A stretch of DNA of 64,000 bases, taken from assembly GCF_964355755.1 (NCBI RefSeq), contig NC_092677.1, positions 14,036,601 to 14,100,600 on the forward strand. Reading direction: 5' to 3'. Numbering within the stretch: the stretch's first letter is position 1; each line of letters opens with the position of its first letter. The notes beneath the pieces are model-generated. The model saw only the letters and a list, made by a program, of their open reading frames with translations. It did not search any database and had not been told where the DNA came from. Of the stretch, positions 3,001 through 48,700 are shown in pieces. The stretch comes from Antedon mediterranea. Its lineage: Eukaryota; Echinodermata; Crinoidea; Comatulida; Antedonidae. The position numbers and the translations under genes were made by a program.

Positions 3001-6000
3001 CAACAGTTCACACTTGCTTCTCTGATAGCATTAAGCTGGATCCGGATAGCATTCTACCTCGCAACATACTCGAACAATTTACTAGCCTCCACAAGGAGTA
3101 TGATGACATTTTCAACCCTTCCTTTAAAGGTTATAATGGTGCTGTAGGCCCGTTTGTTGCCACCGTAAATATGGGACCAGTCCAACCCCCACAACGCAAA
3201 GGTCGCCTTCCTCAGTATGCAAGAGACAAGCTCCTCGAACTACAACACAAGTTCGACGAACTCGAAACACTTGGAGTTTTTGCCCGTCCAGAAGATGTTG
3301 GAGTTGCTGTAGAATATCTCAATCCGTCATTCCTCGTGAAGAAACCCAACGGCGGTTCCAGATTAGTGACATCCTTTGCCGATGTCGGCAGGTACAGCAA
3401 ACCACAACCGTCACTCATGCCTGACGTCGACTCCACTCTTCTTAAAATCGGACAGTGGAAATACATTATAACAACGGATCTTACCAACGCTTTCTACCAA
3501 ATTCCACTTTCAAAACCGTCTATGAAATATTGCGGAATCGTCACTCCATTTCACGGTGTCAGGGTATATACCCGTTGCGCAATGGGCATGCCGGGGTCAG
3601 AAACCGCATTGGAAGAACTTCTAAGCAGAGTAGTGGGTGATTTTTTAGAAGAAGGTTCAGCTACAAAACTCGCTGATGATCTTTACTGCGGCGGTAATAC
3701 AGTTGAAGAGGTCTTGAACGTATGGAGAAGAATCCTTCATGCACTATCCAACTCAGGACTACATTTATCCGCTACCAAAACCGTTATCTGTCCTAAGACT
3801 ACTAACATTCTTGGGTGGATATGGAGCCAAGGGACACTCCGAGCTAGCTCTCATCGCATCTCAACATTATCTAGCTGCCCGAGACCAGTCACCGTGACCG
3901 GATTACGATCGTTCATTGGCGCATTTAAGATGCTATCTCGCGTTCTCCCGCGATGTGCACCTATTTTGTCACCTCTTGAAGCTGCTGTCGCTGGACGACA
4001 ATCCCAAGAGAAGATAGACTGGTCTGACGAATTGCTCGCTAGTTTCGCAAGTGCGCAATCTATCCTCAACTCACCACACACGATTGCCATCCCACGAGCA
4101 AGTGACCAATTGTGGATTGTAACTGATGGCGCCGTCAAGAAATATGGCATAGCTTCCACCTTGTATGTCTCCCGTGACAGCAAACCATTACTCGCTGGTT
4201 TTTATAGCGCTAAACTACGCGGACGACAAATGACCTGGTTACCATGTGAAGTCGAAGCTCTTTCAATTGCCGCATCCACAAAACACTTTAGTCCATTTAT
4301 CATACAATCCGCACATCAGGCACACATTTTGACAGACAGTAAGCCATGTGTCCAAGCCTACGAAAAGTTGTGCAGAGGTGAATTCTCTGTGAGTCCTCGG
4401 GTTTCAACCTTCTTATCCACTGTTAGCCGCTATCACGCATCTGTTCACCACCTCGCAGGTTCCGCAAATATGCCGTCCGACTTCGGGAGCAGGAACGCAC
4501 AACCTTGTGACGCTCCTTCTTGCCAAATCTGCTCTTTTGTCCAACAAACCGAAGACTCTGTTGTTTTCCAAGTGAACATTAAAGACGTTATATCTGGCTC
4601 CACAAAGCTACCTTTCACTAGTCGTCCTGCCTGGCTGGCCATCCAGTCTGAATGTCCGGTCCTACGACGCACTCACGCTCACCTTTCTCAGGGTACTCGC
4701 CCCCACAAAAAAATCACAAACATTAAAGATGTCAAGCGCCTTCTACGATTTTCTACCATAGCCAAGGATGGTCTTTTGGTCGTTCGTAGGGATGAGCCAC
4801 TCGCACCCGTACGCGAATGTATTGTTGTTCCTCGTGATGTCCTCGGGGGCCTTCTCACAGCACTTCATCTGCGTTTTGACCACCCTTCGTGCCATCAGCT
4901 TAAAACGATCGTTCGTAGATATTTCTTCGCTCTCGACATGGATGCCTCTGTGGAGCGTATCTCAGCAAGATGTCACCACTGCGCTGCCCTTCGCTCTATT
5001 CCACATACCGTTATCCCGCAGTCCACCGGAGACCCACCCGATGCAGTTGGTACCACCTTCGCTGCTGATGTAATTAAGCGTGAACGACAACTTATTCTAG
5101 TGATGCGAGAGTGTGTAACATCATTTACAGTCGCGTGCATTATCGACAGCGAACGTCACGACAGTCTACGAGACGGTTTAATCCGCCTTTGTATTGAGCT
5201 CAGGCCTCTTGACGGCCCACACGCTGTAATTCGCACCGACCCTGCTCCTGGATTTGCTTCGTTGGTCAGCGATAAGTTGTTAGCGCACCACAGAATAATG
5301 ATTGAGCTAGGAAGAACCAAAAACCCAAATAAGAATCCAATCGCCGAAAAGGCCGTACGTGAAGTAGAAGACGAACTTCTTACACAAGAACCCACTGGTG
5401 GATTAGTCACCCCAACTATGCTCAAAATTACTATGGCTTGCTTAAACTCTCGACTACGCTCATGTGGTCTCTCTTCTAGGGAGATGTGGACACAACGCGA
5501 CCAGTTTACTAACGACCAAATTCCTCTGTCTGACAGTCAATTAATTATCTCACAGCACAAACGTCGTTTAGCCAATCATGCACATAGTGAAAGATCAAAG
5601 GCTCCAACGGGCCGTTTTCCAGCAAGCTCCGATATTGATGTTGGTGATCTTGTGTACGTCTTAGCCGATCGCAACAAGTCAAAGGCCCGTCATCGCTATC
5701 TCGTAACGTCGGTTGATAACACTTGGTGCAATATCCGCAAATTTATCGGTTCTCAGTTACGTAGTACGGCGTACAAAGTCAAGCGTACGGAATGCTACAA
5801 GGTTCCCTCGTCACCATCTCCTCGATCGCAACATTATTACCAAGAGGACTCGAACAGCGATGATGATTATCAAATTCCTGAGCCACCGCGTACAGAAATA
5901 CCTATTGAGCTGTCAACCCCAGCCGATCACGCTTACCAGGTTGATCCATTGCCTGCTGGTACCGACTCAGAGTTCTTAACTCCTGCTGCTTCTGATGATG

Positions 6001-9000
6001 TCCGCCCTCTCACCGACCTTCATAAAGTCGTTATTCCACCACCAGTGATAGAACCCAGACGATCTACTCGCAGTCATCGCTTACCCACTCATCTTAACGA
6101 TTTTGTACTTGACAAGTGATTCCTGATAAGTATTGTGGGGCAGAATAATCCCCAAGCTGGAGGGCAGTCTACCCGATGACAGCTCGTTTTTCAATTTTTT
6201 GTATATGATTCACAGTTTGTCCCGATTTGCCGTTTTTGTTGTTGACTTTGTTTTTTTTTGAGAAAAGGAAAAAAAAAAAAAAAGGTAGTCACGCCAGTTT
6301 GGCTGTTATGTCACGTACGGCGCTCCATATGAGCCCCCTCGTGTGGTTGTTTTACATACGAATGTTTACTGTTTGCTTTGTTAATAAAGTTACATTATTG
6401 TTATACCTCAAGTATCGGTTATTCAGTTGTATTATCTGTGTGAGTATTGTCTATATTATTACCAAGTTGGCGCTGGGAAGGTTTATTTGGTGTTTCACAA
6501 ATTAACTTCTAGCAAAACAAGCATCCATACAGAAAATGTTCTGTTCTGCCAGCACACAGCGGAACTGTTTAATTCTTCAATTTCAAATCTACAGTGAACT
6601 TGATAACTACCATATTTGCAATATTATTAACAATTTGACACTCATATTGCACCATATGTTCAATGCCATTATTAGCCACCTGCCATCAACACACCACAAG
6701 CTATAAGCATTTTATCTCCTAATGTTATATCTCAGGTCAATGACCTTGACAATATCTAGCAATATGCAACAGGATCTACAATTTCTACATGTCACTTCTC
6801 ACGTATGTAAATATTGTTTATAGCAGGGAGGTGTTTAGTATAAACAAAATAAATAAAATGATACAATTTTCAATAATTATAATCTATTTTATGCCTAGCT
6901 TTACCTGTATAACCCAACAGTAGCCTTATTCTATGTGAAGCTTACCAAGATGGCATGGTTTGTGTACTGTACCATTTATGTTTAATGGCAATTATCTATA
7001 CTTTGGAGGATATCTTGCTCTTTGAGGAGACTAAGACCCCATTTACACTTACGTTTGGGTCCAGGGCCGGTCCTGGGGCGGTTGCAAATATTTACCTTTT
7101 AGGCCGGCCCCAGAGCGTTTACACTAGCGACGCAGATTACTGGTCGTAAATAATGTTATTGGAAGTACCATTGCATGCTATACGAAGTACAGTTTGTTTA
7201 CATTTTTCTCTCTCAATCGTCAATTCAACTCTCCGCGCAAACCGACCGTTTTATATTTATACTGTATTGTTGTTTTTTTGTCCCATTAAAAACAAAATGA
7301 ACACCACTGTTTTATATATAATATGGCTGTATTTTATATATATGCGAAACAAGCGGAGGAATACTTTATTGAAAGATGATGTCTGAAAATAAATTTAACT
7401 ATATAAATGATGAAGAAAACAAATTGTAGCCCGAAAAGGAGGAAGGTATGTACTGAGAATGTCAGATAGTCATAACAACAACCTCATAAAAAGGTCAAAC
7501 GTTGTTCACGGTTCACTGCGTAAGCCGGCCCAAACGTAAAAGCCGCTCCTGAACCTACCTGGAGAGGTGGCCCAGATCTGCGTCCGGCCCAGGGCCGGCC
7601 TAACTTTTTGGAGTATTTACACTTATCAATTGCCGACCCAGGGCCGACCCAGGGCCGGCCTAAATCGTAAGTGTAAATGGGGTCTAAGGCTATTGTCGGT
7701 TTGTCAAGGTAATCAGAACTCATAGACTACCAACACCATTGCTGGTTTGTATAATTTCAAATTCCATTAAGCATTTTCAAATACAAAACCAAACACAAGC
7801 AATGAAATACAGTAAATAAACATCCAAGCCTGCTATAATATACAGCATGATGTATTATTTTTAATTTGTTTTGAAACTTTAGTTTATAATTTTGTGAAAT
7901 GCTTGGTTATGTGTTGTAACATTTTTATTTCCTTGCCAATTGATCAGTAGAAAACAAAAGTAATTTCTTTCATTCCATGTTTTTGTTTCAAGACTCTACT
8001 ATTTAGTTTCTATGTCTGTGGATGACAGCATTTATGACTCAATATTATTTGTCATGGCAATAAAAGTAATTTCCTTGATAATGTTGTTCATTAATTGTAC
8101 ATAATGAATTGTTAATTTCAAGGATATAAACTAGCTCTTTATTGACATTCAATTTATAATATTTAATTACAACAACCGTCTAACGTCCTGCTATTGGCAG
8201 TTAAGTGTTTGTTCAGAATTGTGGCTTTTTAAGAAAAGTAGCGTTTTTTTCAAATGGAGCTATCACATTTTTCAGTCTGAACAAGGCAACAAATTAGTGC
8301 AAAGATACTACCAGAGGTGGCTTAAGAGAATTGAATATAATGAAGTCTCCTGTGACCATTATTTGTGGTTTTAATTTGGTAAAGACTCATTTTGTAGTTT
8401 TGATGTCTCATGGCCTTATATTACTGTATTATTTAAAATAACAAAGAGTAGTCTAGAATTGGGATACTGGTCCGGATAGATTAATGTAATGGAGTCCTTC
8501 ATGATCATATATCCATCTGCGGTTTAAATTTGGTAAAGGTCTGTCCTTTAGTTTTGACATAGAGCCTTACTGTATATTATTAAAGAATAAAAAGTGGGCC
8601 TGAATTGGGATACTGGTCTGGATTGCTTTCAAAATTTAATGAAGTTTTCTGACAGACAAACAAACAAAAATCGGAGAAAAACATGGCTGATAGAGGTAAT
8701 AGCAGATTGTTTATATTCTAAAATATGATTTTACTAAACTTTAATTTCACATGGTAACATAATACATATTTCTCTTTGATATCTTCACAATTTAATTGTA
8801 CTGTATTAGATTGTATTTCATATGCATGATAGGTGTTATTTAAAAAAGATTGAAATGTATGCATCAGTAACTCAATAGTAGTTGAGATATGTTTTTTTTC
8901 CTAGCAGAAGCACACGCCGTTAGTACACCCTGTGTAGCTACAAGCAGGGAGAAGGTGGTTGCTCAGGTGATTGAACGCAATGAACCCTACAGTATATGCC

Positions 9001-18548: not shown

Positions 18549-19649
18549 ACTTGTTTACAAATGTTATCATTTACTATGATTCAAAACTATTTACAAAAAA
18601 GGCACATAACTGACACAATTTCAAAATATGAAAAAACAGAAATTCAAAGTATACAGTATCGTATCTCATTTGGTTATATGTACCATGTCCCACATAACTG
18701 GCTTAGCCTATATATTTTGCCAGTTCTGCGGTACATTTCATTTTGAAACCTAAGCTGCAATGACGAGATCTAATAAGATCGAAACAGTACTGTCTGCAGA
18801 TCGGATATTACGCTCCTCCTCTTGTTCATGCATACCTTACATGAGTCCATTGACAATACCCAATAGTTCTTCTAATGATGTGTGTTTCTGCCTTCTTTTT
18901 AAAGTTGTAAGTAATATTGGATCAGTAAACAGTTGTGAAATATCGTAGTTTAAATGTTGTTGCAATGTTGGCGGTCTTTTGTTTGGGTCTCTAAATTAAA
19001 ATTTCTGCTCTGCTATCAGAAAGTTTCTGATAATTTCATCTGAAAATAATTGGCAAACAACCCCACAATTTTGAAAAGTTGCAAAAATACGTTTTATAAT
19101 TTATCATTGATTCTGTTTTGAATTCATAACATCTTGATTGCTGTAGAAGACTGGCCAAATCTTTCAAATAAAACAAATTGAAGAATAAAATTAATTAATA
19201 TATAACTATTTTCCTTTATTAAAAAAAACACCCACAGGATCCTGTAAGTTCTATTGGAAACAGAGTTAGTTAATCCTATAGTATTATTGCTGAGCAGTTC
19301 ATATCTAATTTAATTACTGTACAACCAAAAGAATGTTCGTAAGTATCTTACCCTCTGTAATTAATTCATGGTGTGAAAATTTAATGGCAAACCCGTAGTA
19401 TGTTTCTGAGAGTAAGAAAACAATAACGAAAACAACAACCAGTAGTAAATCTACAAAGAAATAAAAGTAGATTCAAGATTCAAGATTCAAGATTCAAGAA
19501 ATTTTATTTGTCCATAAAAATGGAAATTCACTTTGCTTGGTAGATTAAAACAACAATATTGCAACAATTTAAAAACGTGCAGTATTATAACAGATTAAAA
19601 ATACAAGATAAAAAGTTAAAAATACTGTTAACAAGGCCAACAGCCATTA

Positions 19650-20662
<1,013 letters not shown>

Positions 20663-21445
20663 AAAAATGTGAAACTATTAAAAATTGCATTAACTTCTTA
20701 CATTAGAATTAAAAATATGAATGCTATTTACAACGAAGGATTTTCTAGTTCTACAAAGATTTGCTTTTGGAGGTCGTAGCCTAATGCCTGATCTATTTAA
20801 GTTATAACAGTAATGTAACGGATGAGTGGGGTCTTTCATAATATTGTTTACTTTTTTTTAAATACTCTTTCATAGATAAATGAACAAGGCGTTAGATCAG
20901 CTTTAATAATACGTTGTGCAATTTTACGTGGTCTCTCAATATTTTTCTTATCATTTTCAGTAAAGTTACCATAAAAACATCCAATGCTAAAAGATAAAAT
21001 ACTTTGAATAATACTTTGATAAAATAGAATTAAAATAGTGTTATCAACTCTAATTTGCTTGAGTTTTCTGAGAAAGTAGAGCCTTTGAGATGCCTTCTTG
21101 GAAATCATGAGAGAGTTTGACTCCCATTTTAATTTGTTGTCAATTATAGTACCTAAGTATTTGTATTGGGTTACTCTTTCAACCTCGGTTTCTTTAATAG
21201 TTATTACATTATGTTCAACTGCGGTTTTACGAAACTCAATTATCATCTCTTTGGTTTTAGTAATATTAAGTATTAAGTTCATATCCTCACACCAATTAAC
21301 AAATCTTCCAACTTCATTAGCAAATTCATTTACATTATGCTTACTATCGCAAAGAAAACCACTAATTACAGTATCGTCAGCGTATTTTACAATATTGCAA
21401 TCTTTACTTAAAATATTAAAACTACTAGTAATTATGATGAGCAAG

Positions 21446-22699
21446 TTATATATTAATATTGAGCGATGTTAATACAATGCACTAACCATTCATACTTACT
21501 AGTTAGAATTGCTTTAGGTTTACATATACGATTTCTTCAATTTGAACTGGGGTTTCTAAAAAATAAATAATTTTCAAATACCAGTTGGGCCTCATGACAC
21601 TGCCACGTAATAATCACAATACTTCCATGATTAAAAAATACAGATTTATACCTGTATTTAATTAAGTCAACGATGGTATTTTTGTAAGAGGATCAAATGC
21701 AAAATGTTATTGATAATAAATCATATATTGTATGTGAAAAGAGAAGTATATTATTAGATAGATAAATATTCTACTGGTCTAAAATATTGATTAACCTACT
21801 TGTTGCTATATAATTGTTGTTGTTATTACCAATGGAATCGGACCTTTGTTGTTCCGCTACCTCAACAAAAGGCGTACATTTGTAAATAAACAAATAACAT
21901 ATTTTGTAAATACATTCACATTTCTGTTTTTTATGTATCATATGATGATACTATATTTTGGTTTTAAAAAACAAATATAAACTAATGGATGGAACACGGT
22001 AGTACGTAACTTAGCTTTATATTATCAAACAACTGTTGATGCATACTTTTATTTAGGATCAACTTTAACTTCTGATTGCTAATTAGCGAAAAGCTCGGAC
22101 GAGTTCGAATTTGAGGGGAAAAGGTCATAACTAACAAAAAACTATTTTACTGCCTAGTTTTTATCAGATTCTCACCAAACTTAGCTCATCATATAATTGT
22201 GGTTAAATTTTGAAGGTTAAGGGTCAAAGATCAAGGTCCACCCAAAAAAATAAATAAATAAAAAATAATATAAAAAAAAAACTTTAGCGGGACTTCAACC
22301 AGCGATCTCAACTGTAAGAGGCTGGATACGGTACATAACCATTCACCAAACTCTCATCCACAACTTTGTAGTGTGCAGTTAGCCTTTACACTTAGAACTA
22401 ATAAAAATATATATATATATATATATTTTCCGGGGAAATTTTATGTAGGGTAATTTTAATTTAAAGTAGGCGGAGGTTTGTCCTCTCGGTGTACCATCAA
22501 ATCTTATAATATTATATAAACAAATCTAATACAACTAACTTGGCAATACACTAGATGATTTGACTAGGTGATCAGCTTCTGGATCTGCAAAATAAAAAAC
22601 AAAACCCTTAAATATCGAACGTACAGTAGTATCTGTTTTCGTTCATTCTATGCAACATATGGAAAATGATGCAGTGTTAAATCACACTTCTTGAATGTT
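21446..22699. other. Region between LINE fragment and DED pseudo-exon
   Basis: AT-rich. 22275-22345 read on the minus strand ends in a tRNA-like B-box (GGTTGAAGTCCCGC), so it may be a SINE head. A TA dinucleotide run is at 22408-22428. No gene seen. Confidence 0.35.
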
Positions 22700-23289
22700 A
22701 TTAAATGGAAATATTATTATCATTGGTTTGAACGTACCCATCAATATCCTTTTTGCACTTGCATTCAACTGAATGGCAAATGTTTCCAATTTCATCTGTG
22801 TGTTTAATTTAAGTTCTTTCTCCAGATAAAATACTAAATCCCATTTATTTTTAAATTCATGTGAAACCAATCCATTGAACGCAATCAAGTTGTGCAAGTC
22901 ACCCTTCGTGATTTCAAACATAGCTCATGATAAAGGTTTTTTACGATTTGAATTGAAGACAAGCTTGCCTCCTCACACGGACCGGTGTCGTCATATTGTT
23001 TACATACGGTACGTCTTGATATTTCTTTACACTGGTTATTGCTTTGGCATTTTCTGACACGCCTGCAATTTCTGACATTATTTCGACATCATTGTAAGCG
23101 ATTTTGCCTCGAACTTTAAGTTCATTAAATAAATTCATTCCTGTGTGGCGTTCATTTCACAATACACCAATCGGTAGGTGATCATGTAGAAGAAATCTCC
23201 TGTCGTTTAACCCCCTGGATAAGCGTTGCTGAATTCTTGACAAAAGTCTCTAAGTCTATCATCGGCATCAGCCGTTGTGTTACTGTAAA

Positions 23290-24834
23290 AGAAAATAAAT
23301 AAATACTCTAAAATTGCGTTTTGCATATTAATCTTTCATGTAGGCCTAATAAGCAAGGTACTATATTTTACGATTATTATTTTATTGCAAACATAATGCA
23401 TCTTGTAATGCCGCAGGAATATGCATATTCTCTATTGAGCTGAGGTTATGTTGTCTCCGTAAAATAATAAATAAATAAACCGAGTCCTTAACATCCTTTA
23501 ACCTTTGACTCGAAAAATGAAAGTATTCTTTTTTAATACACAAAAAAAAAGAGAATACCGAAGAGAATGATTATAAAAAAAATGTTAATTTAATCTATAA
23601 AAATAGATGTGTTATAAAACAAAAAGTAAAATGTTTAATCGGAAAGAATAATTCCATTCGCTGCAAGCCTACAACTTGGCTTCTCTAGGTAAATTTTTTA
23701 AATTATAACAATAATCTCCCCCATTATTTATAGTTTTTGCGTGTGCAGTCGTTATCATACCATGAATTGGAGGAACTCCGACCCAGAGCAGAATTCATGG
23801 CAGTTGTAATAGTTAAATTAAATTTAAAAATTAAGTCAATGTAATTCTACAATCCAACCTGTGCTATAACGTTGGAGAAAATTGATACTTTTGGAGGCGC
23901 TCGCCTCGTCTGAAATTGTCAATTTTTACCACACACCCCAATTCCCCAGCACAGATCGTCATAATAATATTATTATTTATATTAATAATTATGCAGTATT
24001 TAAATAAAGCATCTTTGCTTCGGCTGTTTTTAACCTCTCGCTACGGCCTTGGGATATACTGTTCTTAAACAACAAATCATTTGTTGTTTGCATTAATATT
24101 ATGTTATTATTCCTACCTTTTATCTTTCATTTTGTTCTTGCCTCTTTCCGTCGTCCAAAATACTCACTGTTAGAAAAGATCATGTAGGTCTATCAGAGTC
24201 ACAATTCTGTAACAAATCAACTTAACTGCGATTTATAATAATGGAATAATGGGACCCTATAGTTGAAAGTATTTAATGCCTGTAGGCATAATCGTGTGCT
24301 ATAGGAAATCTAATGAAATAATATATTTCATTTGCTATGGTCTAAAAGTAGTTTGAATCCGTTTAAATCATAATCACATCACACTGAGAACCAATCGAGA
24401 TCAAAAGTATTTGTGTTATGCTCGATTTTAGAAGATAAAGTAAAAGATTAACAAATTATTAAAATTGAGCAAAGATTTCCTTGCACAATTTCAAATTACA
24501 CAATGTTGTGCAGATTCGCGCAACGGAAAAATTGTTGCGCTACGGTATTTCAAATCGCGCATAATATTTTACATTCGCTTAAAGATTATACCATACATAA
24601 ACAGCCTAACTTAAACTCAGTAAACAAGTTTAATAGTATCATACCAACTTCAATTAAATTCTTATTCAATTAAAAAATTGACATGTGCCTTGTATAAATT
24701 GGAAAATTTACCTGGTACCGTTTAGCCTAATCAAAATTCAGTTTGTTTCTTTACAGCAACACTCTAAGCAGAAATGTTGGTGTGTCCTACTATTTCTCAC
24801 AGTACACATACTGTAATATTTGTATATCATATCT
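23290..24834. other. 5' flank of the pseudogene
   Basis: No coding exon seen. AT-rich, with one CpG-bearing stretch around 24510-24570. Confidence 0.35.
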
Positions 24835-25060
24835 AACAACGTCCTGATTTCGTATTACATACGTTATGCTCCAATGCAATTTAATAAAAAGATGTTTGGC
24901 AATAGGACCGTCTATTCATAATAGTACAAAGAGACTGTTAAATAACTCAAGTCAGCCATATTATATCCAAACCGTAAAAAGAGACATTGTAAAACCTAAC
25001 TTAGAGGCATGCTAGTGTAGCATTTTAAAAAATGGTGGCTTATAGAGATTCGTTTTTATC
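24835..25060. repeat. 5'-flank block of duplication copy B (match to 34390-34700)
   Basis: Shared landmarks with 34390-34700 in the same order: CAATTTAATAAAAA, ATAATAGTACAA, ATTATATCCAAA, AGACATTGTAAAA, ATTCGTTTTT. Sequence identity is moderate with indels. Confidence 0.7.
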
Positions 25061-25411
25061 CGTTTCTCTGTTGAACACTATGTAGAAATAAATATCTTGG
25101 AAATGTATCCCATTTCTGAGATCACAGAGTTTTCCATATAGATCCATGAACTGTATAATTGAAACGATATGTGTAATAGAAAAAATTCGTATGATTAATG
25201 TGATGGAATACTTGACGGTTGTTAATATTACCTTACCAAATCCTTAGTGAATACAAATAATTACGGTTAGGCCTATGATGTTTTAAACTGGATTGTTGCG
25301 GTAATCCACATATTCAGTTCTCAAAGAGTTTCTCGACGTTTCGATCAATATATACTTTGATGGTCCTGAGGACCAATATGATATAGTGCACATTGTAAGG
25401 CTGTGGTTTAG
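25061..25411. other. Short spacer between duplication copies
   Basis: No gene or repeat recognised. It is the junction zone between copy B (left) and copy A (right). Confidence 0.4.
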
Positions 25412-25998
25412 TGATTTTTCGAAATCGGATATTCAGAGTTAGGTTTCATGTTCGGAAACACAAATTGGTGCATAGATTCCCGTTGTTGGTTGCCGGTACC
25501 GGATGAATACCCGCATGCAAAATTTTTTGATTTCTGCAATGCAACATCCCTATTTTTTGTGAGAAAATATTAAGTATGTTAGATTAAAATATTAATCTAA
25601 CAACAGAATGCTGAGCTCCGTTAGATCAAAGGTTGTATCTGTGGTTGCGACACGATCAGAGAATAATGTGTAACCGCAACTATAGTATGAATTTGTAGCA
25701 GCCAATCATAAGGACTGAGCATAATGTTGTTGGAAAGTCTTAGCTTTATTCCATCTCCTAATTTAAGCACAACAAGTAAAAAATAACGACAACTAGTTAA
25801 ACTTCATTCTTAGGCCTACTTTAATAAACAACAAACACCTGAACATACGCCGATCAGTCGGTCTTTTCTATGAAAATGTGCATAATTACTAACCTCAACA
25901 CGTACCGGTATCTAATATAAATTTTAGATGTGTAACTGTATTTCGAAGTCGATACAACACAAGATTGATGTTTTCACATGGCCGTTTTAGCTGACTTA
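25412..25998. repeat. 3'-flank block of duplication copy A
   Basis: Contiguous counterpart of 16513-16628 plus 17985-18548. Lies downstream of the intact NACHT gene on its strand. Confidence 0.8.
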
Positions 25999-26948
25999 AA
26001 GGTGGGCTCAGGAAATAAATAAATCTCTAATCTTTTACTTGTAATATTGTCTTATGAGATTGTAATTGGCAAAATGAATGTGAATGCCCAATGTAAGAAC
26101 AAGGCTGTCAAACTTTGCCCGGCTAGGTAATTAGTAAAGGATAGGCGATTGTGTGTGTGAACCATCTTCAGATGACTTGTATTAAATAACTATACAATAA
26201 AACATAGAAATGAATGCTATTTGACCAATATTTACATTAGTATAATAGCCTTTTTTCATGAAATTATCTCATTTTACAGGAAAATTGATTGTGGCCCAAT
26301 TTTCAAATAGCTTAAAATACATACACATTATACATTTTTTTACAATATATTTGCTACCCTACAACTTTATTTAAGACATAGTATGATAATGATACTATAT
26401 GTACTTACTGTACGTATTATATTGTTGTGACTAACGTGTACGTACTAGATAATAATTTGTATAGGCCTATTATTTGTATTGTGTTTTCTCTGAGGATTTG
26501 TACTTACTAGTAACAATGCATATTGTTTTTAATTCTAACAAATTTTAAAACTTTTTCTCAATAGATTAAGTTTAATTTATTTTCAGTATAAGTATAGGCC
26601 TATCTTTAATATGAACATACATGTCTAACACTAAGATATTAGATATTATTATAATTAAGCGATTAAGTTGATCTTACTTTTAGTTTATATATCAATTTAT
26701 CCATCCCATTTATCATATTATTTTTGTTATAAATTGCTATTTTAATTTAATATTTTCATTTCATTTCATAGTAACATTTATATACATAGTATTAACCTTA
26801 AATTTGGAAATAATTTATATTATAATAAAAATGTTAGTAGCTAGTAAATTAATTGATAGGTCTACTAAGCCTAGCACTATTCCATCTAGCAAATTTAAAA
26901 AGCTTTGTAGTGTTTGGCTGATATATCTAATCTAAACAAGAACAACAC
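25999..26948. other. 3' flank of the NACHT gene
   Basis: AT-rich. I see no leucine-rich-repeat exon or other coding exon, so the last NACHT exon probably ends the gene. Several TAGGCCTA motifs. Confidence 0.4.
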
Positions 26949-29900
26949 TTACAGGGCGCAGGGTATCAGTTTCCGTAGGCCTACATGTGCATCAATATCT
27001 GAAAGGTTATTTAATTGAATAACAATATATTTGGACTGAAGATAATTTGCATCATATATCTTCAACGTATTTAATAGCGTATCAGAAAATGTGCAATACA
27101 TCAATAAATAAAAACCTTCTAAAGGATAGAAGTTGATAATGTTACCTAATAATTCTCTATTAAAATAGTTTAATTTCAAAAACATTTTACTGTTTTTACA
27201 TTTGGGTGGTTGATCTCTTATTTCGAGAATCTTTTTTTTTGATACAACATAATCGTCTTCCTCTCCCCGGTGAATTTGATCAATACGACATTGACGATAT
27301 TCTTTTTTGTTGAAATAGAAGTTTGTTATGTTTAACCAACCGTACGTAGGTAATTTAGGTAAATGTATTTTTTCCTTTAAATGATACCTCCGCCATTCTT
27401 TTGAGATAATTTTAATAGCTGTATCACCCCATTTTTCAACTAACATAAGCAAATATAAATCGCACATTTTTTCATAACATACCGTGTCTTCTGGCGCGTG
27501 TAGTTGCATTATTATTAAAAGGTGTGCCACGAGCCTGCAAACAGTTTCAGATGATTTCTTAGTTGATTCATTTATTAATACATTTACTTTGCGTGTTACG
27601 TTTTTTGGATATTCTGTAAGTTCCTTATACAGCAATTGCAAAAGCTGTATGCAGTGTGAATTGTTGTGAGTATAAATTATTTTCAAGGAATTTCTAAAAC
27701 GTTCAACTTGTACTTTCATTTCTGCGGACATGTGTTTATCTAGTGATTCCAATAACCTTTCGTTATGATCTTGGTTTACATATTGAAAAAATTTGGAAAA
27801 AGAGTAATAATTTGAAGCATTGTTCACCAACCAGTGTTTCATGATTTTGTCTGCATCCAGACCTAGAAAACTTATTGTAAAAGCTGTTGTCATATGTAAA
27901 TAATTGTTTGTCCTTAATTCTTCACTTTCTTTAAAATCTAAAGTCTCAAATTGATATTTGTGGGACAAGTAAAATCCCGCTAGTGCTTCGGCCAATAACT
28001 TATGTGGATATCGGTAAGTATCCAAAAACCTATCCTGAACAATAGGGTTATCTATGTAAACAAATCCCAATTTAAGTGATAAGTCAACTAATGTTTCATT
28101 TTTTACTAGCTCTCTTAATTTCAATTTAGTAAAATGAAGTACATTTTTCTGTAGAATTGTATAACTAATATTTCCTAATATTAGAATGGAATGTTTAAAT
28201 TCAGGTGGAATGTGGTCAAGTGTTTCTATCGCTTTTGTAGTACCCCTTCTGTTAATGTATTGATTTAAAATGCAACGGAAAATTTCTTTAAAAAGGTCCT
28301 GAAGATTGTTAGGAACTTTTTGTTCGTGTTCCCATATGGTACACATTTTAAGTAAAAAATATGGAAATGGCAAGAGTTCAAATATTGTTTTGTAATCACC
28401 ACCCCAATCTTCTTCAAATTCCGAATTAAGTTTCAACTCTTCAATCAATGATTCACCAAGTGTATGATTTCTAATAAGTTTGAAATATTTGTTAATAAAT
28501 TGTTTTATGTTTTTTTCAGTAAACCCTTGTACTTTTACATATAAATCGCAATGTTTTTTAAGTAATTTTACTGTAAACCCCGGTCGTGATGTAATGATAG
28601 CTATGCTTTCTCTCAGTTCGGTACCTTCTAATAACTTGTCTGGTCCTACGACACCATCTTCTAACTCATCTAATCCATCTAACAGCACAATTAATTCCCT
28701 GTCGTATTTCTCTATAAACATTTTTATAATGGTTTTATTTTCTGGAAAACTAGTATTTTTACTAAAAATATTTAGTGGAACTTCATCAACAATCATATCT
28801 GTAATTGTCTGACCCGCTTTGATGTCTCTGATGTTGATAAGAAATAATATTTTACCAGTAAATGTAGAATGTGAATCAGTTGCCCAGTTGTAAGATATAT
28901 ACTGAAGTAATGTAGTTTTACCAACTCCTCCTTCTCCTGTCATGCATACTTTACATGAGTCCATAGACTTGATAATACCCAATAGTTTCTCAAATGATGT
29001 GTGATTACAGATTTTTAGATGTGGGTATTTATCCTTCTTTAATATCTTTGGAATCAATTTTGGATCAGTAAACATTAATGAAATATTGTATTCATTTTCA
29101 AAGTGAGAGTTCCACGTCGGCGGTTTTATGTTTGGATTATGAAATTTCCTTTTCTGTTCGGCTGTTAGAAAGTTTCGGATAATTTCATCTGAAAAGGTAA
29201 ATAATTGTTATTTATTATTCTCTTCTAGTTATCATTTGGCCTACTATCATTTTACAGCTGAAATACTGTAATTACAACTTCTTATATCAACACTTATAAA
29301 CATGCTTATTTCAAAAATTTAATACAATCTTCATTTTCTTTGATTTGTCCAAGCCAATATCTCACTACTGTATATAAACTATCTATCTAAGAATTTCGTA
29401 ATTATTATGTGATTGGGTGAAGATTGGTTTTGCCACATATACGTAAGTATGTATGTAACCATAACATTGCAATTAAAGTTTATTGTAATGTAAAATCGGC
29501 ATAAATGTTCTGTGGTCAATACGAAACAAAAATGTGATGCAAATTCATTTCCCATTGTTGTGTTCCACAGGATTCCATTCTTGGTCTAATACTTGTTAAT
29601 ATATCTATGAAGAATGATCTCAATCCAAATGCTACAAAATATTCGCATTAGACATTACATTTGTATTTATTATGCAAATTATATGTTTTAAAATAATCTT
29701 TTTAGATTCTTTAAGATTTATTATTAATCAGAAATGTCACATAGGTATTACTGTAGACATATTGAATCTAAAAAATTTGGATTATCCAAAAATGAAAAAT
29801 ATAATATTATACGCTTGTAGAATGTTGTCGAGTACAGAAACTCAAAATTATTCATTTGTTATAAAAGAATGTACACAGTTTGGCCTCTTCTCATATTCTT

Positions 29901-32900
29901 TTATTCTAATCCATCCGTGTTTGCAATCTATATTATAAAATGAATTATTATTGTTTGTTTAATTCAAAAGGAAGTCACTCATATTGTACACGGTGTACTA
30001 ACCTCTTCCAAACCATCCCCTCACCAACCCCAACTATTTTAACAATTTATTTTATCTTTTAAAATAAATCTGAAATCCGTATTGAATTTAAATTAATTAC
30101 TAAACCCTTATAATTGGAAAGAACACAATTCTCTAATTACATTATTATTGTTATTAATTTTCAAATTACAATATGTATTAACATTATTAATACAATATCA
30201 AATTATTGATTATTTATTTGTCATTTTATTTGTTTAGTTATTATATTTGCCTATTATACAATATAAGTATTACATCAAGGGTTATACTGCACAAATAAGT
30301 TATTAAATTTAGTTCTTGATGTGTTTTTTGTTTTTTATTCAATACATTACCAACCCATGTTTTTTAACTCCTCATTTTTCACGATTGCCAATTATGTATC
30401 CTTCATGAAATAACGATAACTGTACTTACCTTCTGTTAGTGTTCTAGCGTCTAATTCTTCACTTTGGTCTCCTAACATATATTTATTCTTGCCAGCCACT
30501 CTGATGTTGTATAGTTTCGCTGATGACAGTTCTTTGATTGTGTACATTTGAAAATCTTTTTCATTTTTATTCTCTGATGAAATAATATTTTTTTTAAAGA
30601 AATAAAGCACACATTCTGTATCAATATCAACCAATAGCTTATTATTTATTTTACTTAATTTATGTAGACTTACTGTAATCAAACATTTCGAAATCACCAA
30701 CATACTGACGCTCACTTTTATATCTAAAGCTGATGTTGTAGGCAACTAGGTCAAGACCACCGGTGTATTCAGGGTCTTCTATTCGTAGTGTGATGGAATT
30801 GAGATTTTGTTCCAACAGTGTGACTGTAGGCGCATTTGGTGGATCTATAATTCAATTAACATTTAAAAGATAAATAAAATAGAAATTAAATTAACTATAC
30901 TTACAGTATGCTGTATAATAGGCAAAACAAAAATTTTGTTTATAAAAAAGACAAAATTAACAATTAAATTTAACCAAAAACCTATTGAATTCCAAACCAA
31001 TAGGCCTAGGTTTGAAATATAAATAAAATTCAAAATAAATAAAATACTTATGCTGTATAATAGGTAAACAAATATATACAAAAATGAGTCTACTTATATA
31101 CAAGACAAAATAAACATTTAAATTTACACTTTTTATTGACTTCCAGACCATATGTTTAGACAATATGTTAAAGATAAATAAAATACAAAATAAATAAAAT
31201 ACTTATGATGTATAATAGCCACAAAAAAAAAAGATTATACTTATAAAAAAGACAAAATAAACATTTTAATTTAATCAAAAACCCATTGACTTCCAGACAA
31301 TAGGTTTCAGTACTTTACAATTTGTATAATTTGTCAATTCTGTCACATGTGATGATAGGCTATGCCATTATATGACTAACCAAAACATGATGCAGAGATT
31401 TCGATCATGGTTGTGCATCTGATTCTTCTTGTATCTAGAATTATGCAGTAGGCCTTCTCATAAGAATTCCGGAATATAGCATCACGTGTTTCGCGTGTAT
31501 CATCTAGTATCATCAACCATAACATAACCTAACCTAACCATAAAAAAGATAAATCATTACCCCCAATAGGCCTGGCAGCAATGAAAGCGATGACAACAGC
31601 GATTAAAGCGATGACAACAGCGATTAAAGCGATGACAATAGCAACATCCAGTGCTACTGTATAAAGAAACAAATGATAATAAATATCATCACAAACCGTG
31701 TACCGTACTGTACCGAATTAATGTATACAGATGTTGTTGATTAAAAATATTAGGAAATGATAATAAAACACAAAAAAGACACACAAATATACATATGAAA
31801 AGAAATACAAAGCCAAAAATATACGTTTCTGATAGTGACACGTCCGTGGATAGGCAATTACTTACCAAGTACTGACTCAAATCATGGCTCTGTCACAGTC
31901 ATGATGGCCAATAATCAATTATACTTTTGGCTTAGAAGGCATTGGTTTGTTTCTCACCTAAAATTGGTGAGGACTGTACTACCAAAGATTGTATAGCGCC
32001 GCTAAGCGGCGCTATACAATCTTTGGTAGTACCATGCGCTTAATTGTAACGAACATAGACACATTTATTTTGTTGTCAGTAGAGAATATCAAATTCAACT
32101 CAAATCGATTTTAAGCAAGAAACTCGAATATTCGATACAGAAAAGAATCGTTTATCTTCGATAAACGAATTAAGAATAATAATAAATGATAATAACAATC
32201 AAATGTAATTACATATTTTAATTATGATGAATAAAACAGAGAAATGTATTTCAATTTTTAGGCATTCGATTAACTATTAGAGCTCCATTCCTCGTGCCTT
32301 TAAAACCACAATGCAATCGATTAATATAAAAAATTGTTTGATTAGGGTTTAAAAAATCAATTAGATTTTTCTAACAAGTTTACATACCTGTTTTTTTTAT
32401 TGCTGTTCTTGATAAGTTTTCAACTATATCAACTTGTTGTCCACCTGTATCTATATAGCAAGTAAAGAAACATTAGGAGGCTTTTGATTCGCGACGACCG
32501 CTTATGACCAAACTACGCTGTACCACTGGGAATGATCTCTTATTTTTTACCATTACCTTTACCATCAATTAAAGACTCTATATAATTATAGACCAAAGAC
32601 CACGGTTTTCCTTCACATTTTCGCTCCAATATTAAAGACCACTTTAAGAATAAACTTAATGCATTTTTAGGGTAGTAACATCCATTGGGAATTGAAAAGA
32701 AATCAGGAAAATACACACATATGGACAGAAGGGCGAACAAACCACTTGATTACATTTACCTTTACCCTTCTTCTGAAAGTAAGAATCCATTCTGACATTT
32801 AATTTCCCCCAGAGACCTGAACGTTAAATGTGCGAATAATGTTGCAATTGTTTGAATACCTACCTAGTAATATCGTTTTTGCACCTTCATTCAACTGATT

Positions 32901-33395
32901 GGCAAATATATCCAACTTCATCTGTGTATCTAATTTGAGTTCTCTCTCCAGATAAAATACTAAATCCCATTTATTTTTAAATCCGTATGAACGCAGTTCG
33001 TAGAACGCAATCAATTTGTCAAAATCACCTCTCTTATTTTCAGTTATACTACACATAGCTTTATAAAGTTGTTTACGCTTTTCCTTCAAATTTGCCCAAT
33101 ACGGACCGAAACCATCATAATATTCATCAACGTCTTGTTTGTATCTCATTACACTGTCTTTTGCAGCAGTATTTTCTGTCAAGTCTGCAATTTCTGACAT
33201 AATGTTAACATCATTGTATGCGATAAGGCCTTTTTGCCGAAGTTCTGTAAATAAATCCATTCCCAAGTAGTGTTTATTAGATAATACACTAATCGATAGG
33301 TTATCATGCAGAAGAAATCTCAATTCCCGTACTTCATCCCCAGGATAGGCATTACTGAATTCTTGAAGAAAATCTCTAAATCTATCATCATCCAT
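26949..33395 (-). CDS. DED-like / transmembrane / fibronectin III / NACHT protein
   Basis: Six coding exons on the minus strand: 33395-32864, 32450-32388, 31656-31561, 30844-30674, 30573-30430, 29188-26949 (stop included). All five introns are GT-AG and phase 1; the product is 1,081 residues. Order: DED-like helical domain (about 1-90, with RELRFLL and GMDLFTEL), a second helical region (about 110-177), a short linker, a hydrophobic segment (199-225, A/V/I/L only after the first residues), an FN3-type domain (231-335: PPNAPTV, GLDLVAYNISF, YNIRVAGKN), then NACHT with Walker A GEGGVGKTT (420-428) and Walker B LIVLLDGLDELE (501-512), and a long helical C-terminus without LRRs. NACHT proteins with death-fold domains are innate immune sensors in animals; that role here is inference. 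A decayed tandem copy lies at 18.8-23.3 kb. The stop overlaps a perfect donor (GTAAGT), so another C-terminus is possible. Confidence 0.82.
29562..29621 (+). pseudogene. Decayed reverse-transcriptase motif (LINE remnant)
   Basis: Twenty codons read VPQDSILGL then ILVN, close to the VPQGSILGPLLF block of non-LTR reverse transcriptases. No intact surrounding frame. Lies in the NACHT gene intron between the last FN3 exon and the NACHT exon. Confidence 0.45.
31587..31642. repeat. 21-bp tandem repeat encoding the hydrophobic segment
   Basis: The 21-bp unit GCGATGACAACAGCGATTAA(A) is present twice in full and once in part. On the minus strand it encodes a seven-residue hydrophobic unit (LIAVVIA). 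It lies wholly inside the transmembrane exon 31561-31656. Confidence 0.9.
31976..32032. repeat. Perfect 57-bp palindrome (28-bp arms, 1-nt centre)
   Basis: Left arm 31976-32003 ends GTATAGCGCCGCT; right arm 32005-32032 starts AGCGGCGCTATAC; all 28 positions pair. It lies in the intron between the linker exon and the transmembrane exon of the NACHT gene. Confidence 0.97.
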
Positions 33396-45791: not shown

Positions 45792-48700
45792 TCATGGTTG
45801 GGTTACTGTTACTGTCGAATCTTCACAAGTATTTTGAGGTAGTTTAGCTATTTTAATCTTCTCTTCCTCAAACATTTCACCTAAAATAGACAATCTTGAA
45901 TGGAATGGTCTTGCAGAGCAATTATAAACAGTAGATAAACTATCATGTTTATCGCTATTTGCATATTGTTCTAAAAAATGTAATCTTTTTTTATTGTTTT
46001 TAAATACTTTAAATGCAAGTTCTATTTCATCTTGTGCTGGTTGTTTTTTACAGCAATCAAGGGCGCCGATGTCTATGGGATGCGCTTCTGTGTTGAAGAT
46101 GTACCCGCCCGCATTCACTACGCACGTTCCATGGTTAGTTTGTACGACGTCTCCACTCCCGCCCGTTCGATGAATTTTGTTATCTTCGTCAAATAAAAGG
46201 TATAGATATTTTGTTGTTTCCGAGAGGAAGAAGGATTCCATACGATTATCAAGTTTATGAGTTCGGACATCTTTTATCTGCAAAAAAAAAGACATTTTTC
46301 ATGACTTGCTTTGGTTTAAATAAAAAATTAACAAAAGGAACATTTGTAATGGTACTTACTGAAGTATATCCGCAACTAGTTTTAGCTACTTTCTCTATTG
46401 ATTCTAACATATCTCGACCCATTCGCAGCAGAAATGGGTCCTTGGTTGCACGGTATAGGTACATGATGCTCTCTGCAAGTTCTGTGAAATGAATCCAAAC
46501 AGGATAAATCAAAATGTAAAGATGCTTGCATATACAGTTGAACCTCCCGTAGGTGGCTGCTTACAGGAGATGACCTTTCATTTATTATTAGTTTCAAGAA
46601 TAAGAAAAAAACAACACACAAGCTATGCTAAAGTACAATATTAAAAAGATGATATTTGAAACATATTGCTAGCTACTATTGCTACTGCAAAATTGGGGTT
46701 GTAAATATTTTGCTTAATCTCACTTTGTTTTTTTTCTTTTTCTGTCTCAAAATGTCATTTTTTGTTAATGTAATGCGTCCGTTTATGTTTATGCTTAGGA
46801 CTGCAAAGACAAGCCACTTTGGTTTCTGTGTATCTTAACCCATAAACTATGTAAACTGTTGAATATTGAATAAATGTATGTACTATGAGGTAGAGACAGG
46901 ATTCCTAAAAAGTGAAATTAATCACTGTCTAGTCTCCTAATTGCACTAATTTGATAAAAACACATAGAATGTTTTGTAAACATATGTATAAACAAAGATA
47001 ATAAAAGGAGAAGATACAACAGTTCCGTTGGCGGTGTAAACCACATCCGGGTTACTATTTGCCTATGCCTGAAGGTGGCGCACTTCTTTTTCGCTAGAAG
47101 AAGTGCGCCACCTTCAGGCGTGGGTAAGGTAAAACTTTTATTGTAAATATCTATAAAAATGCAAAAACGATGATTATTTATCAAAATGTTTATTTATCAA
47201 AATGATTATCTAAAATATTAATAATTTCAAAATTAGTAAAGCACAGACGCGAGAACATCAGATCATCACGATCCATCCAAACGTAGGATTAGACGGGAAC
47301 CATATCTAGAGCCCGCCGTCGTTCGGCTGCTGGATTCTTACGCGTCCATGAAAGCACGTCCGCGTTTCCTATCCTTCTATATATAACAGCGCGTACTGTT
47401 GATTCTTAACCTATTTATATTCTTTGGTATAAATTGTCAATGCTACATTATTCAACCCCCTCGCAAATTTAAGCGATTGCATATGTAGTAACTTACATCT
47501 TTATAGATCTATATATTCATTTTCATTTATAAAACCTTACCTGGTCTGAGTGGGTATCCATATCGTTTATCCACAACTTTACCGTGAATAATATTGTAAA
47601 ATTCTGGAAGAAAACCCAACTGCTGCCAGACTTGGTAATAATTATGTAATGACTTCATTGCATCATCAATTTTGCCAACCATGCTCTGAAATAAATGAAT
47701 TAAAAATAATATTCAATAATATAATATCTTAGATTTATAAATTGCGTAAAGTTGTGAAATCTCCAAGCACTATATATAATATTATTACCCCGGTCATTTT
47801 TTTAATCAAAATGCATATGGAAACATACTCCCATAATGCAGCTAATAATCAGCACAAAGTTTTGTCTTGACCTTACCAGGTATCCATTTGTTCACATGGG
47901 TGGAGATAGGCAAAAATAAGTGAAGTGTCTTTTTGAAAATTCTTTTTATGTTGTGTTATTATTATGTTCGATATTATTCAATTATTTATTATACAAGCAA
48001 TGTCACGGTCATTATAGCCCTTACGATGATCCATTTATACATACATAAATTTGACCCATACTATATCATGTTAGATCTCAAATCTTCGCCTATCCATCGT
48101 TTCCCTGTTCTTTGGTCTTCTCTTCCTTCCCCTCTCTCTCAAAGACTCGTCTGTCCTTTCTTCTCTTCATGTTTTCCTCAGACAGTTAAAACAACATTTT
48201 ACTGAATCTTAAATCGACTCTGGTGTGCTTTCTTTTTCTTTTTCCTCTTTTTCTTGTTTTTAAATGTATTTTGAACTGTATTGATTTTAAATTTCATATA
48301 GTTAAGTTCTTCTGGTGACTCTGTTGCTTTTGGGGTCCCAGGATAATAATAAATAAATGAGAAACAATCCATATTGAATATTACCCGTTTGGGTGCTAGA
48401 ATCTTTGTTACCACCCTTACCTGTAACCCTGGCCAAAAGGCCTCCAATGACTGGAATACAGGGGCTGTCATTGTTCCTTTGTTCATGTTCACCCACATAT
48501 ACCAATCATCTTTCTTTATAAAAGTTTCAATCACTTTTTCGTATTCTGAAAAATGACAAAAATTACAATAATTTAACATCGGCAAGGGTTCAAGGCTCAC
48601 TCACTCCATGGTTCTGGTGGTAGAACAAGTCTTCTCGGATAAGGACTATAAACTGTAGGTCCAGTGTACACATCTAGCTTATGTGCACTTTAATAAACCT

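Follow-up and report, generated by a model that had tools for sequence, protein, structure and literature searches.

The DNA analysed here, a 64,000-nt window from the crinoid Antedon mediterranea within which all coordinates are given, supports a gene model in which a predicted DED, a membrane-type segment, an FN3 domain and a NACHT domain follow one another in that order in one echinoderm gene. We propose that the product is a membrane-anchored, NLR-like, single-pass signal-anchor receptor that would hold its DED in the cytosol and its FN3-NACHT part outside the cell or in the lumen, working as a death receptor turned round; we put the probability of this reading at roughly 0.45. A wider proposal is offered tentatively: a crinoid receptor family in which an intact NACHT (with an FN3 stalk in some members) would lie outside or in the lumen, connected by one helix to a cytosolic DED, stalk and DED being swapped as phase-1 exon cassettes.

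Gene structure and domain assignments

The gene lies on the minus strand, and its six exons splice in frame to give a 1081-residue product. All five introns are GT-AG and in phase 1. Exons and nucleotide-binding motifs are listed with the source of each assignment.

Exon 1 (E1), 32864..33395, minus strand: start codon and DED (spliced model, Pfam, PDB profile search)
Exon 2 (E2), 32388..32450, minus strand: linker of 21 residues, basic ones among them, leading into the membrane segment (spliced model, alignment to P0002)
Exon 3 (E3), 31561..31656, minus strand: single strongly hydrophobic segment, about residues 199-226 (hydropathy)
Exon 4 (E4), 30674..30844, minus strand: first part of FN3 (spliced model, Pfam, PDB match)
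Exon 5 (E5), 30430..30573, minus strand: second part of FN3 (spliced model; the NCBI protein agrees with 30573)
Exon 6 (E6), 26949..29188, minus strand: NACHT NTPase and C-terminal region; the stop codon occupies 26949-26951 (Pfam, PDB matches)
Walker A GEGGVGKT, residues 420-427, 28914..28937, minus strand (found by inspecting the sequence and its alignment)
Walker B LIVLLDGLDE, residues 501-510, 28665..28694, minus strand (found by inspecting the sequence and its alignment)

The spliced product is identical (100% identity over 100%) to P0001, an NCBI/UniRef 'uncharacterized protein' of Antedon mediterranea whose cluster holds one sequence only and whose domains run, from N- to C-terminus, DED, a single very hydrophobic segment, FN3 and an intact NACHT. 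The splice model and the identical NCBI protein bear out the claim of an earlier note on this DNA that six exons join in frame, and the parts that it had named (a death-fold-like N-terminus, a hydrophobic exon, an FN3 split by an intron and an intact NACHT with Walker A and B) are all where it placed them, on the minus strand. An alternative in-frame acceptor would start E5 at 30615 and add 14 residues. A further exon past E6 is possible, since the E6 stop overlaps a donor-like GTAAGT. At the gathering threshold, Rfam gave 0 matches in the whole window. Exons E2 to E5 measure 63, 96, 171 and 144 nt, each a multiple of 3; because all four are symmetric 1-1 exons, exon choice in frame, giving alternative forms, is possible.

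Like an NLR, the protein begins with a death-fold effector domain, despite a DED score in P0001 itself that stays below the Pfam cut-off of 35.9: residues 6-69 match at E 1.4e-5 and 25.7 bits when exon 1 is searched alone, and at E 1.2e-4 and 22.6 bits in the whole protein. The matching stretch of the paralogue P0003 scores 37.8 bits, above that cut-off, and when a profile was compared with the PDB, 7/7 matches up to E 1 were cFLIP or caspase-8 chains (E 0.008-0.84). As a single sequence, the P0003 N-terminus matched no DED chain in the PDB. Residues 106-177 of exon 1 might form a second DED-like unit. The caspase-8 chain 5h31 gives a collinear but weak alignment over profile positions 10-167 (E 0.84); the second half of exon 1 searched alone gave no DED match, and a profile comparison of its first half with its second half gave no match either. 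The middle stretch of P0003 holds one more weak DED match (E 1.2e-4, below the cut-off).

The FN3 assignment combines a sub-cut-off Pfam score with matches to FN3 chains of known structure. Pfam fn3 scores 22.4 bits (E 1.5e-4) for exons 4-5 alone and 16.9 bits (E 0.0077) in the whole protein, with a cut-off of 25; in the PDB, NCAM FN3 matches residues 1-98 of the 105 encoded by exons 4-5 (E 3.3e-4), and titin FN3 chains match as well. The NACHT domain scores 64.2 bits in Pfam (E 1.7e-17), above its cut-off of 26.7, and its nucleotide-binding motifs are intact, as in an NLR. Its best PDB sequence matches are NLRC4 chains (5aj2 and 3jbl, E 1.4e-5 and 7.1e-5); human-type NLRC4 carries CARD and LRR but neither TM nor FN3. 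The C-terminal LRRs of an NLR were not found: none of the Pfam matches up to E 1 is to an LRR model, and no LRR-type exons were recognised downstream, at 23300-27100. Within that same interval the P0002 tail matches at E 0.002, on the opposite strand and with an internal stop. Pfam also gave no match to the cysteine-rich ectodomain of a TNFR-type death receptor.

Relatives and a broken tandem copy

The paralogue P0002 is 60% identical to P0001 over 94% and keeps the whole domain order, a point against a chance fusion. Conservation between the two is highest in FN3 (83.6% and 89.6%), with 65.7% over residues 336-600 and 33.1% over 801-1081. Two further Antedon proteins are simpler: P0003 is DED-TM-NACHT, and P0004, labelled 'isoform X1', is TM-NACHT without DED and FN3. 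DED and FN3 thus vary among the relatives, while a hydrophobic segment before NACHT is constant, being present at 5/5 of the Antedon loci found (four annotated proteins among the matches listed and, in weaker form, the broken copy described below). Family counts refer to those listed matches, two protein searches having scored the 7999 and 8000 candidates that share most words; relatives escaped individual searches, P0004 being missed in one and P0003 going unlisted in two. P0005 (23% identity over 25%) was left out of these counts, and sea cucumber proteins were not among the named matches listed. The outgroup P0006, a partial record from Anneissia japonica that was read by eye only and stood outside the hydropathy script, has on this reading no hydrophobic segment before NACHT, which counts against a membrane receptor.

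It is quite unlikely, in our judgement, that exon choice yields soluble and membrane forms with a soluble DED-NACHT or DED-FN3-NACHT protein as the main product. P0001 is the full form, in its cluster of one, and P0002-P0004 also carry a hydrophobic segment ahead of NACHT, P0004 in the absence of both DED and FN3. What speaks for such forms is that E2 to E5 could each be skipped between phase-1 flanks, that E5 has an alternative acceptor and that P0004 bears an isoform label.

The window also holds a broken tandem copy of the gene.

22726..23263, minus strand: DED exon, in three frame segments with stops (73.6% DNA identity, 560 aligned columns)
19352..19450, minus strand: putative hydrophobic exon, 99 nt, phase 1-1 if an exon (P0004 N-terminus match, E 0.017)
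18813..19046, minus strand: remnant of the NACHT exon start (69.6% DNA identity, 270 aligned columns)

The match at the putative hydrophobic exon, at E 0.017, is the best that the P0004 N-terminus gave, and the window's own E3 gave nothing better than E 1.1 against that region. The best 19-mer reaches a hydropathy of 2.22 inside the putative exon, rising to 3.05 only when residues ahead of the acceptor are taken in. No FN3 match was found between the DED and NACHT remnants.

That neighbouring genes have been wrongly fused, in the earlier note and the NCBI annotation as well as in our model, seems most improbable. The gene model is a prediction, and the NCBI models may share one pipeline. Against such an artefact, P0002 keeps the order down to the two short exons before FN3 (61.1% identity over the 18/21 positions of E2 and 63% over the 19/32 residues of E3 that align), all five introns share phase 1, and the pieces of the broken copy (DED, hydrophobic, NACHT) follow the order of the intact gene.

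Hydrophobic segment and its orientation

Hydropathy and flanking charges were computed by script. The best 19-residue Kyte-Doolittle (KD) mean of exon 3 is 3.62. Among the window's 1480 open frames of 25 codons or more, 3 reach 2.9: exon 3, a frame in intron 2 and the one in which the hydrophobic exon of the broken copy lies. Exon 3 contains a 21-bp tandem repeat (31576-31642; 3.2 copies, 93% matches), and the alanines of its helix are spaced 4-4-3-4-3-4-3. All four annotated Antedon proteins (P0001-P0004) have a strongly hydrophobic 19-mer upstream of NACHT, with KD values of 2.90-3.62. The earlier note had offered a reentrant anchor as one option; with a P0002 segment only about 20 residues long, an anchor of this kind or a hairpin looks unlikely.

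Counted over 15 residues on either side of the best 19-mer, lysines plus arginines number 3/1, 3/1, 2/2 and 2/1 (before/after) in P0001-P0004, so the flanking charge leans towards N-in in 3/4 proteins, with a small bias and a tie in P0003. Sequons in the NACHT and C-terminal part number 13 in P0001 vs 5.0 in shuffles (p 0.001) and 10 in P0002 vs 5.2 (p 0.025), with 10 stretches tested; since these two proteins are close relatives, the excess amounts to about one observation, and no enrichment over shuffles appeared in P0003, P0004 or P0006. Reading the sequence shows no N-terminal signal peptide ahead of the DED. From these features we tentatively infer which side of the membrane each part would occupy: the segment would insert co-translationally as a signal anchor, and this would place the DED on the cytosolic side and FN3-NACHT on the outer or lumenal side. 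The high FN3 conservation between P0001 and P0002, the sequon excess and the charge lean would all count in favour of this reading.

The kept Walker motifs count against it, as they would suit an ATP-dependent switch in the cytosol more readily than an ectodomain. They could instead belong to a cytosolic receptor with DED and NACHT on the same side, whose helix is buried at rest and inserts into the membrane once NACHT oligomerisation exposes it, by analogy with membrane-inserting cell-death proteins. The lack of sequon enrichment in P0003 and P0004 would agree with this, and a helix with this alanine pattern could pack into a bundle. We nevertheless regard it as unlikely, given that the secretory machinery would normally take up a segment some 20-28 residues long whose KD reaches 3.62, and that in P0001 and P0002 the FN3 separating helix from NACHT would have no obvious role.

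Discussion

NLRs are taught as cytosolic sensors, and NACHT is normally cytosolic. This usual placement would be kept if the DED were translocated and FN3-NACHT stayed inside, an arrangement that we consider very unlikely: no partner is known for a DED on the outside, reading shows no signal peptide ahead of it, and flanking charges lean the opposite way in three of the four proteins. It does have a precedent in the sea cucumber protein AjNLRC4, described in the available text of its source with Ig domains outside, NACHT inside and two TMs (PMC8699970), and this report counts by analogy against a NACHT on the outside. For the signal-anchor reading that we prefer, the published precedent is AjNLR-new of Apostichopus japonicus, whose NACHT is reported as extracellular in the available text (PMC13133943).

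The earlier note held that no standard NLR model explains a membrane pass that would set the two signalling modules on opposite sides. This was too strong, since membrane-bound NLR-like proteins have been published for sea cucumber (Ig-TM-NACHT; PMC13133943, PMC8699970), anthozoans (PMC5094078) and sponges, and the Antedon gene looks like a variant of the few such receptors known from invertebrates. Its further remark that the combination is unfamiliar among described NLR families agrees with our finding no DED-TM-FN3-NACHT architecture in the literature searched. As far as the available texts go, the nearest likenesses are partial. TM, beta-sandwich domain and NACHT occur in one chain both here and in the sea cucumber proteins, as FN3 here and as Ig there. 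AjNLR-new is likewise an echinoderm protein with membrane segments and a C-terminal NACHT, but it has Ig between two TMs where the Antedon gene has one TM followed by FN3, its description includes no DED, and its reported effectors are fidgetin and actin (PMC13133943). AjNLRC4 likewise is NLR-like, membrane-bound and without LRR, and differs in its outside Ig domains, its two TMs and the lack of a described death fold (PMC8699970). Anthozoan NLRs also place membrane segments N-terminal to NACHT, although 3-5 of them rather than one, and the available text leaves FN3 and fibronectin unmentioned and names DED once, in the methods (PMC5094078). The DED-NACHT proteins of amphioxus, sea urchin and Nematostella couple DED directly to NACHT, as here, but are described as intracellular, with no TM or FN3 mentioned in the text available (PMC2575513).

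If the signal-anchor reading holds, the DEDs would be drawn together when a ligand or nucleotide drives FN3-NACHT to cluster, perhaps with help from the helix's alanine stripe, and would then recruit DED partners such as relatives of FADD or caspase-8. Death receptors cluster outside and recruit through a death fold, the DD, inside, and they have a cysteine-rich ectodomain. The logic proposed here would be the same, with the opposite orientation, a DED in place of the DD and FN3-NACHT in place of the cysteine-rich ectodomain. The topology would be that reported for AjNLR-new.

Since the hydrophobic segment persists at every Antedon locus found while DED and FN3 come and go, the sequences suggest that membrane placement is inherited within the Antedon family rather than being noise. 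Together with the cases reported from sea cucumber, this makes it a testable question whether echinoderms use NACHT as an ectodomain, and a second whether DED signalling is wired straight to it. If so, crinoids would have a death receptor with an NLR switch as its ectodomain.

Results

The earlier note had proposed a single gene joining a death effector domain (DED), a strongly hydrophobic segment, a fibronectin III (FN3) domain and a NACHT domain, an arrangement that is borne out by the gene model and by the paralogue P0002. At this level, the architecture of DED, transmembrane segment (TM), FN3 and NACHT is real.

Exons of the receptor gene, placed by splice sites
32864-33395, minus, E1
32388-32450, minus, E2
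31561-31656, minus, E3
30674-30844, minus, E4
30430-30573, minus, E5
26949-29188, minus, E6

All five introns (413, 731, 716, 100 and 1241 nucleotides) are GT-AG and phase 1, and the predicted product of E1-E6 has 1081 residues. This model agrees with the public annotation, since a protein search returned an NCBI/UniRef entry of the comatulid crinoid Antedon mediterranea (P0001) with 100% identity over 100%, the record being named merely 'uncharacterized protein'. Soluble forms of the receptor are possible through its symmetric exons. The E6 stop codon lies inside a donor-like CCCT/GTAAGT (26940-26960, minus), and a longer, unannotated form is therefore conceivable; no exon of the leucine-rich repeat (LRR) type was recognised downstream of E6 in 23300-27100. 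The tail of P0002 matches 26209-26328 on the opposite (plus) strand with an internal stop (E 0.002), perhaps by chance. Intron 2 carries a perfect 28-bp inverted repeat with arms 1 base apart (31976-32032), perhaps a small palindromic mobile element.

Pfam recognises a NACHT domain in P0001 (E 1.7e-17); the Walker A and B motifs of this domain read as intact, and its best PDB matches are NLRC4 chains (E 1.4e-5). The DED at residues 6-69 (E 1.4e-5 when exon 1 is searched by itself, 1.2e-4 with the full protein) and fn3 (E 1.5e-4 for exons 4-5 by themselves, 0.0077 with the full protein) both fall under their curated cut-offs, and Pfam recognised no LRR. The stretch corresponding to this DED in the Antedon relative P0003 exceeds the Pfam cut-off (37.8 vs 35.9 bits). 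With an exon 1 profile built from three proteins, PDB matches up to E 1 numbered seven (E 0.008 to 0.84), each of them a cFLIP or caspase-8 chain; by contrast, the P0003 N-terminus as a lone query matched no DED chain. A further DED may lie in the second half of exon 1, but tests for it were negative or weak. The FN3 piece matches the FN3 of NCAM over residues 1-98 of 105 (E 3.3e-4), as well as titin FN3 repeats.

E3 has a best 19-residue Kyte-Doolittle mean (KD) of 3.62, and this hydropathy strongly suggests membrane insertion of the predicted TM. The window has 1480 open frames of 25 codons or more, of which three reach a KD of at least 2.9: E3, the frame containing the putative hydrophobic exon of a broken tandem copy, and a frame in intron 2 directly upstream of E3 (31692-31892, minus, KD 3.23). 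E3 contains a 21-bp tandem repeat, seven codons per unit, which spaces its alanines 4-4-3-4-3-4-3 and so places them on a single helix face. Because one repeat process made this pattern, it is no independent evidence for helix packing.

Protein searches found four Antedon proteins including P0001, a partial Anneissia japonica protein (P0006) and a distant protein (P0005). P0001 and P0002 are listed on a contig of 28,587,047 bases, and P0003 and P0004 on one of 26,055,566 bases. P0002 retains the full domain order. In P0003, which lacks FN3, a DED is followed by a middle stretch with a further weak DED match and then by a hydrophobic segment and NACHT. P0004, with neither DED nor FN3, carries a hydrophobic segment and NACHT. 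A strong hydrophobic segment thus precedes NACHT in all four Antedon proteins (KD 2.90-3.62); none was seen in P0006, a partial protein judged by reading alone. Two additional C-terminal hydrophobic stretches in P0004 (residues 990-1038, KD 1.65 and 2.59) raise the possibility of more than one membrane pass.

Identity between P0001 and P0002 is 71.3% in E1, 61.1% in E2 (18 of 21 residues aligned), 63.2% in E3 (19 of 32 aligned), 83.6% in E4, 89.6% in E5, and 65.7%, 72.5% and 33.1% over residues 336-600, 601-800 and 801-1081, so that conservation peaks in FN3 and is lowest in the tail. Such a pattern would be expected of a variable sensing end, but the high identity of the FN3 exons could also stem from gene conversion.

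The broken, truncated tandem copy (about 18813-23263, minus) retains a DED exon split over three frame segments, a putative hydrophobic exon of 99 nt and the beginning of a NACHT exon, with no FN3 match between these pieces. A lenient search using nine query pieces matched its putative hydrophobic exon to P0004 (E 0.017); E3 itself found nothing there (best E 1.1). The best 19-residue mean is 2.22 within the putative exon and reaches 3.05 only when residues before the acceptor are counted, and we regard this exon as weaker evidence than the segments of the Antedon proteins. A reverse transcriptase fragment, presumably LINE-like (20848-21468; RVT_1 E 6.6e-6), and a long GACA repeat (20340-20631) interrupt the copy.

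Other elements in the window
1176-6119, plus, intact retroelement open reading frame of 1647 aa, by domain matches (reverse transcriptase and RNase H above cut-off; aspartyl protease and integrase zinc-binding under cut-off)
45792-46560, minus, glycosyl hydrolase family 47 in two open frames (E 4.8e-15 and 3.2e-11), which we take to be EDEM-like

Discussion

While the sequence anatomy of the receptor is established, its membrane side, ligand and partners are what we infer. No N-terminal signal peptide is visible by reading. In the 15-residue flanks of the best 19-mer, lysines plus arginines (N-terminal/C-terminal flank) number 3/1 in P0001, 3/1 in P0002, 2/2 in P0003 and 2/1 in P0004, weakly favouring an N-terminus on the cytosolic side in three of the four. 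When N-glycosylation sequons were compared with shuffles (ten stretches in all), the NACHT and C-terminal part showed an excess in P0001 (13 vs 5.0, p 0.001) and P0002 (10 vs 5.2, p 0.025), which amount to about one observation because the two are close relatives; there was no excess in P0003 (6 vs 4.7), P0004 (10 vs 8.7), P0006 (9 vs 6.2) or the distant P0005 (7 vs 3.9, p 0.083). That the Walker motifs are retained points to a functional NTPase, and this is easier to explain in the cytosol. Weighing charges, sequons and Walker motifs together, we put the probability of NACHT lying outside the cytosol at about 0.45. Under this tentatively favoured reading, the receptor would be of the signal-anchor type: FN3-NACHT would sense and cluster on the far side of the membrane, the signal would be transmitted through the TM helix, and the DEDs in the cytosol would recruit DED partners.

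The DED-TM-FN3-NACHT combination was not found in the portions consulted of open PMC papers. The excerpts describe sea cucumber membrane NLR-like proteins (AjNLRC4, PMC8699970; AjNLR-new, PMC13133943), actiniarian NLRs carrying 3-5 TMs (PMC5094078), TM-bearing NLRs in sponge (PMC12909245), DED-NACHT in amphioxus (PMC2575513), and a holothuroid Chiridota repertoire of death/DED NLRs and an Ig V-set domain (PMC8913654). Further surveys cover ctenophore (PMC11797021), placozoan (PMC6321704), pearl oyster (PMC9646362) and cnidarian (PMC8260672) repertoires, the last using the word 'fibronectin' at one place outside the portions consulted. The earlier claim that nothing explains the architecture is therefore too strong, as invertebrate membrane NLR-like proteins are already known. 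The Antedon receptor belongs to this known but little studied class, and the interesting question is on which side of the membrane its NACHT domain lies.
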